Origin: a bacterium
Lineage (GTDB): Bacteria > SZUA-182 > DTGQ01
Direction: 5' to 3'
Length of the DNA: 32,626 nucleotides
Assembly (NCBI GenBank): GCA_023512255.1
Contig: JAILZY010000036.1
Coordinates: 1 to 32,626, forward strand
How positions within the stretch are numbered: position 1 is the first letter of the stretch; the number at the start of each line of letters is the position of its first letter. The notes beneath the pieces are model-generated. The model was given only the letters and a program-made list of their open reading frames with translations, was not told where the DNA came from and made no database searches. A program made the translations under genes and the position numbers. Below are positions 1,208-32,624 of the stretch, in pieces.

Positions 1208-1335
1208 GAGGGGAAAACCCTTTTGAAAAAGGGTTTTCCCCTCAAACCCTTTTCCTAAAACTTTAATTATATAGTTATTAAAGTTTTAGGAGGATGGTTT
1301 GGAAGGAACCCTTTTTCAAAAGGGTTCCTTCCAAA
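1208..1335 (+). repeat. Triple-hairpin dispersed element, copy A
   Basis: A 128-bp element of three consecutive inverted repeats: stem 1 of 17 bp (1208-1224 with 1227-1243), stem 2 of 14 bp (1254-1267 with 1277-1290) and stem 3 of 18 bp (1298-1315 with 1318-1335). An equally long copy in the same orientation lies at 25592-25719. It has no ORF, no obvious target-site duplication, and no U-tract after any stem, so it is not a simple terminator. Relative to transcription of lptF/lptG it is inverted compared with the copy in the pgk/tpiA gap. It resembles a REP/BIME- or MITE-like nonautonomous element (inference). Confidence 0.88.
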
Positions 1336-25591: not shown

Positions 25592-25719
25592 AAGGGGAAA
25601 ACCCTTTTGAAAAAGGGTTTTCCCCTTATACCCCTTTCCTAAAACTTTAATATCTTAATATTAAAGTTTTAGGAGGATGGTTTGGAAGGAACCCTTATTG
25701 AATAAGGGTTCCTTCCAAA
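25592..25719 (+). repeat. Triple-hairpin dispersed element, copy B
   Basis: 128 bp, the same length and orientation as copy A at 1208-1335. Stem 1 is 17 bp (25592-25608 with 25611-25627), stem 2 is 16 bp (25638-25653 with 25658-25673) and stem 3 is 19 bp around a single G (25681-25699 with 25701-25719). Spacers between stems are the same lengths as in copy A (10 and 7 nt), and the second spacer AGGATGG is identical. It fills most of the 170-bp pgk/tpiA gap and leaves the tpiA ribosome binding site intact. Confidence 0.88.
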
Positions 25720-32551: not shown

Positions 32552-32624
32552 CAGATGTTCCCCATGTTGAAAAAATAATGTTGAAAATATAAAGGGGAGG
32601 AGAGAAAATAAAGAGAGAAGAAAG
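32552..32624 (-). repeat. Right copy of terminal 73-bp inverted repeat
   Basis: Exact reverse complement of bases 1-73, ending two bases before the end of the window. On this strand it contains ATGTTGAAAAAATA followed directly by ATGTTGAAAATATA, a 14-bp tandem pair with one mismatch, then a purine-rich tract. It lies upstream of the mre operon. Confidence 0.9.

Follow-up and report, generated by a model that had tools for sequence, protein, structure and literature searches.

The window, that is, the whole stretch of 32,626 nucleotides that was analyzed (contig C16), presented two copies of one element, copy A at 1208-1335 and copy B at 25592-25719. The original prediction had located them at exactly these coordinates, in the gaps between lptF and lptG and between pgk and tpiA, and both copies were confirmed, with one shared three-hairpin architecture. 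Pfam matches on the flanking genes (LptF_LptG on both sides of the first gap, PGK and TIM at the second) agreed with the genes named, and the predicted stem lengths were correct to within 1-3 bp. The element is a three-hairpin, 128-letter dispersed non-coding repeat confined to one lineage, and its parts, hairpins H1, H2, and H3, were distributed in the window as follows.

1208..1335, + strand: copy A, full element (H1-H2-H3), in the lptF/lptG gap
1208..1243, + strand: copy A, hairpin H1 (GAGGGGAAAACCCTTTTGAAAAAGGGTTTTCCCCTC), with a stem 3 bp longer outward (TTTGAGGGG..CCCCTCAAA)
1244..1297, + strand: copy A, central region, with the CCCTTTTCC tract, palindrome H2 (CCTAAAACTTTAAT..ATTAAAGTTTTAGG), and an AGGATGG tract
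1298..1335, + strand: copy A, hairpin H3 (TTTGGAAGGAACCCTTTTTCAAAAGGGTTCCTTCCAAA)
25592..25719, + strand: copy B, full element (H1-H2-H3), in the pgk/tpiA gap
25592..25627, + strand: copy B, hairpin H1 (RNA fold)
25628..25681, + strand: copy B, central region with palindrome H2 and hypervariable centre AATATCTTAATATT
25682..25719, + strand: copy B, hairpin H3 with loop variant TTATTGAATAA (RNA fold)

Among the dispersed repeats of the window, the strongest was the pair 1209-1335 and 25593-25719 (91% identical with gaps). A covariance model, partly built from copies A and B themselves, matched exactly two places in the window, these two copies, and each gave a hit on either strand, the unit being almost identical to its reverse complement. 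RNA folds displayed three stems on either strand for both copies, with energies of -72 to -77 kcal/mol vs. about -33 kcal/mol for dinucleotide shuffles (fold z from -9.7 to -12.2). No Rfam match above the gathering score was obtained in the window, consistent with the earlier failure to recognize a named family, and sub-threshold matches resembled chance hairpin similarity. The two copies faced opposite ways with respect to local transcription, as had been predicted, copy A lying against the transcription of both neighbours and copy B along it. The absence of a U-tract after any stem, also predicted, held for copy B, where the terminator scan found no T-tract after any stem; in copy A the scan flagged H1 with the tail CCCTTTTCCT, antisense to both genes.

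The genome is a fragmented MAG of 3.83 Mb in 172 contigs with a completeness of 96.6%. The core of the right half of the element, with up to three mismatches, appeared at 71 sites genome-wide vs. 0 in the reversed control, which bore out the expectation that two copies in 32 kb imply many; the core of the left half appeared at 91 sites (control, 9). After reading all sites, totals were ~59 full copies, ~27 left halves (H1 plus the left arm of H2), and ~8 right halves (the right arm of H2 plus H3), i.e., ~35 halves, figures that depend on mismatch cut-offs and reading and could move by several. A consensus drawn from 24 copies starts with H1 AGGGGAAAACCCTTTTGAAAAAGGGTTTTCCCCT, 3-5 variable bases, and CCCYTTTCC, continues with H2 (CCTAAAACTTTAAT-centre-ATTAAAGTTTTAGG) followed by AGGATGGTTT, and ends with H3 (GGAAGGAACCC-loop-GGGTTCCTTCCAAA). 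H3 repeats H1 imperfectly in inverted orientation, the unit being ~80% its own reverse complement, and extra tandem half-hairpins were present outside H1 or H3 in some copies. Copies had no coding capacity, occupied intergenic gaps, and were found in either orientation, the neighbours of full copies being arranged 15 times as ++, 13 as --, 8 as convergent, and 10 as divergent pairs. Orientation relative to neighbouring genes thus looked random, which argues against a terminator role, as the original prediction had also held. An intrinsic terminator (a GC-rich stem followed by a T-tract, downstream of genes) was rejected on this ground and since copy B contained no candidate and copy A a single one, antisense to both genes.

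Other repeats were found in the same genome. Both window ends (1-73 and 32552-32624) carried the same 73-nt sequence, inverted and bounded by CAGATGTTCCCCAT, and this sequence was found again at the ends of contigs C44, C45, and C88 or close to them; the assembly breaks here at another multi-copy repeat, perhaps an IS. One full copy of the element, L021 (G000:C46:824-947), lay between two CAGATGTTCCCCAT-like repeats in inverted orientation, so that one repeat is nested in another. Directly after two left halves, L104 (C39:16294) and L105 (C45:197), a third repeat (CGCTCTTATATATCAGACACC...) was observed; in L104 it is completed to a palindrome by TATAAGAGCG.

Model and pattern searches found no copy in relatives, either in the same genus (one genome, G001), in the same family (G002 and G003), or in the same order (G004). 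Orthologous gaps in the same-genus genome were empty for seven copies, namely both window sites plus L008, L014, L017, L100, and L124, in alignments that were rough because intergenic DNA has diverged; the pgk-tpiA gap was short and empty in both same-family genomes too. The earlier view of the element as dispersed, probably mobile, and non-coding agreed with these empty gaps and with the many intergenic copies that relatives lack. Such a distribution supports a spread that was probably recent and restricted to one lineage, insertion being posterior to the split from the same-genus genome, and it is from the distribution of copies that we infer mobility. At L017, a single case hints that the outer bases may have arrived with the element. 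One copy, L005 (G000:C130:4459-4586), was located at a synteny breakpoint, its two flanks mapping to contig C1 of the same-genus genome in opposite orientations, with ~30 kb between them; an inversion by recombination between copies was rejected there, the far breakpoint being without a copy. A search for carriage of copies by plasmids, phages, or viruses found no match among plasmids, a single weak one among phages, and one viral contig.

In half copies, the split fell in the centre of the H2 palindrome or close to it. Right halves started within a few bases of TTAAAGTTTTAGG, and left halves stopped within or slightly past CCTAAAACTTT(T)AATAACC. The left halves L100 and L124 were missing from contiguous DNA of the same-genus genome, indicating insertions or truncations at the site and not remnants of large rearrangements. 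The H2 centre was the most variable part of the element (41 distinct loops in 53 copies) and nevertheless paired with itself more than when halves of different copies were combined (4.53 vs. 3.44 ± 0.16); copies with long loops had a conserved inner sequence in common. Stem covariation within the family was almost nil because the stems barely vary. The positions at the foot of H1 varied between copies whose stems are nearly identical, and the bases just inside H1 paired with the unique flank outside (2.77 bases vs. 1.87 ± 0.11, 0 of 5000 shuffles), as in L029 (ACA/TGT), L012 (AGA/TCT), and L023 (GAT/ATC); left-half copies gave 2.81 vs. 2.09 ± 0.22 (P = 0.0014). In these flank and loop shuffle tests the shared ancestry of copies was only partly corrected. 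No target-site duplication was detected (mean 1.89 vs. 1.87 ± 0.21 when flanks were re-paired). Inverted repeats in the flanks were not in excess either, and insertion into such repeats was rejected.

Repeats with the same plan and other letters were present in same-class genomes (G006-G008), in the Nitrospinota MAG CSMAG_3060 (G040), and in Mailhella. They share with the element an H1, a CCCCTTCCnAArACTTT-like arm, a variable loop, an AAAGTYTTnGG-like arm, and an H3, and differ in stem letters, in an extra hairpin nested in the H2 loop in G007, and in longer outer stems in Mailhella. In G007 (L132, L134, and L135) the hairpin nested in the H2 loop was long (GGAATTTGGYTGGCGGCAC...GTGCCGCCARCCAAATTCC) and its centre variable, and the Mailhella repeats (L149, L153, and L154, from goat and sheep gut MAGs) displayed, besides the longer outer stems, strong purine-tract mirror symmetry. 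The strict two-arm pattern occurred only in the genome under study and in G040 among 386 genomes sampled; single matches of the superfamily pattern in G187 and G234 look like chance and were discarded. Common ancestry and convergence are both possible origins of the same plan across phyla.

Considering these features, the element is probably a non-autonomous, MITE-like dispersed palindromic repeat that was moved in trans and whose hairpins have been reshaped by template switching. Mobilization would be carried out by a host or element activity that recognizes the hairpins in single-stranded DNA once it has folded, and opening, breakage, or rejoining would take place at the central H2 palindrome. 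After insertion, template switching in hairpins during replication would keep every stem perfect, and the same process may rewrite the H2 centre and draw the bases of the H1 foot into pairing with the flank. The hypervariable palindromic centre and the foot-flank pairing agree with template switching inside hairpins. Mutation of this type is documented in microbes, and it has been put forward as a way in which hairpins arise and are maintained (PMC8794818). Both patterns could alternatively be produced during insertion. No mover gene was found among the Y1 transposase and reverse-transcriptase searches of the genome, in which an autonomous partner could be missing given its fragmentation into 172 contigs and 96.6% completeness. 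A reverse transcriptase was rejected as the mover, the PF00078 search having given one frame, on contig C113, where none of the listed copies lies. The element is most likely selfish or neutral, and no regulatory role is evident. As a non-autonomous unit within ~100-200 bp, without an ORF, dispersed, and with empty sites in relatives, it resembles the bacterial MITEs Correia/NEMIS, RUP, ERIC, and YPAL (reviewed in PMC2229807), which are likewise non-autonomous units of ~100-200 bp with long hairpins, lie in gene gaps, and were gained in some lineages only. Unlike them, it presents no target-site duplication, and no matching IS was found; its halves occur separately, and its palindromic centre is hypervariable.

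A possible though unlikely reading, compatible with mobility, is a repeat similar to PIT or TM_ECO, in which H1 and CCCCTTTC would form a pyrimidine-motif intrastrand triplex and GGAGGATGG and H3 a purine-motif one, causing replication stalls and instability. The motif classes of this type contain three tracts with at least 6-8 triplets and at most one mismatch, separated by loops of 1-6 nt (PMC4666352). Seven of eight triplets were counted at both ends of the element (shuffle P = 0.035-0.09, ~0.04 for H1 and 0.09 for H3), and mirror symmetry was kept with another sequence in Mailhella, where L149 reached 12 of 14 (P = 0.00015). The element also shares with PIT/BoxC/TM_ECO (PMC4666352) the mirror-order purine and pyrimidine tracts beside each outer hairpin, a patchy presence among close relatives, and a lack of correlation with gene orientation, and it has a 3-nt TTT loop before H3; one copy, L005, is at a synteny breakpoint. 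Against this reading, the signal in this genome was weak after composition control, the second end of the L005 rearrangement is without a copy, and the hairpin part between the H1 arms is longer than the 1-6 nt loops described (PMC4666352), the other loop (3-5 nt) being within that range. The element also differs in having two motifs of opposite kind flanking a central palindrome, and membership of TM_ECO/BoxC was rejected, as its consensus does not fit the pattern CCCTCNCCCN3-6GGGNGAGGGN3GGGNGAGGG (PMC4666352). The order of tracts is suggestive of triplexes that may form at both ends, which is not a claim of membership.

An unlikely explanation, too, is a MITE of a DDE-type insertion sequence that retained the two terminal hairpins and lost its inside. 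The inverted similarity of H1 and H3 in a unit ~80% its own reverse complement, the conserved inner sequence common to long-loop copies, and the separate occurrence of left and right halves are in its favour; it is weakened by the lack of target-site duplications, by half copies, which cut-and-paste is not expected to yield, and by the stretches of 3-11 kb around eight right halves, in which no left end paired as a larger unit. This last result led to the rejection of an autonomous element with a left half at one end and a right half at the other, and no IS with the same ends as the element was found around these eight right-half copies of the fragmented MAG. A DDE-type MITE without target-site duplications is less likely, though the MAG could lack its parent IS.

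It appears rather improbable that these are widely scattered two-ended hairpin elements that spread by fold-back, template-switching DNA synthesis without a dedicated transposase, in which case opening of H2 would release independent halves and each insertion would copy a few flank bases into the hairpin foot. A structural or regulatory element kept by selection (an mRNA 3' end stabilizer, an attenuator, or a binding site for a nucleoid protein or gyrase) is very improbable: stems are very stable on either strand and copies are located inside operon-like gaps, whereas the family is missing from the same genus, family, and order, orthologous gaps in relatives are without the element, and orientation is random, with all four neighbour arrangements represented. 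This lineage-specific distribution, the empty gaps, and the four arrangements argue against a terminator or a conserved regulator.

Least probable of all is a REP/BIME or REPIN-type element moved by a RayT (TnpA-REP) Y1 transposase, with which the repeat shares being dispersed, intergenic, palindromic, non-coding, present in many copies, and without target-site duplication, but REPs are palindromes of 20-50 nt (PMC8266576) vs. a unit of 128 bp with three hairpins, neither GTAG nor CGTC tags appear in the consensus of 24 copies, and the REP-associated gene whose search had originally been suggested was not found as a stand-alone Y1_Tnp frame here; a PF01797 search of nine genomes gave 3-6 matches in sister genomes that lack the element. 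The sole match in the genome under study was weak, the domain being part of a methyltransferase-like frame of 537 aa (L163, G000:C83:30598-30852), which lies beside a second methylase-like frame.

Returning to the MITE-like repeat moved in trans, no description of a three-hairpin element of this kind was found in the REP, MITE, and triplex literature searched. New here are the split near the H2 centre, a centre that is hypervariable yet palindromic, the covariation of the H1 foot with the flank, and the same plan in other letters elsewhere. Small palindromic repeats are common in bacteria, and the movers of many of them are not known. This element offers a clean record, with near-invariant stems, a hypervariable palindromic centre, halves split near that centre, and hairpin feet matched to the flank, and it could serve in studies of the copying, cutting, and insertion of folded DNA. 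That other phyla have the same plan in different letters points to a broader class, which repeat searches relying on sequence would overlook.
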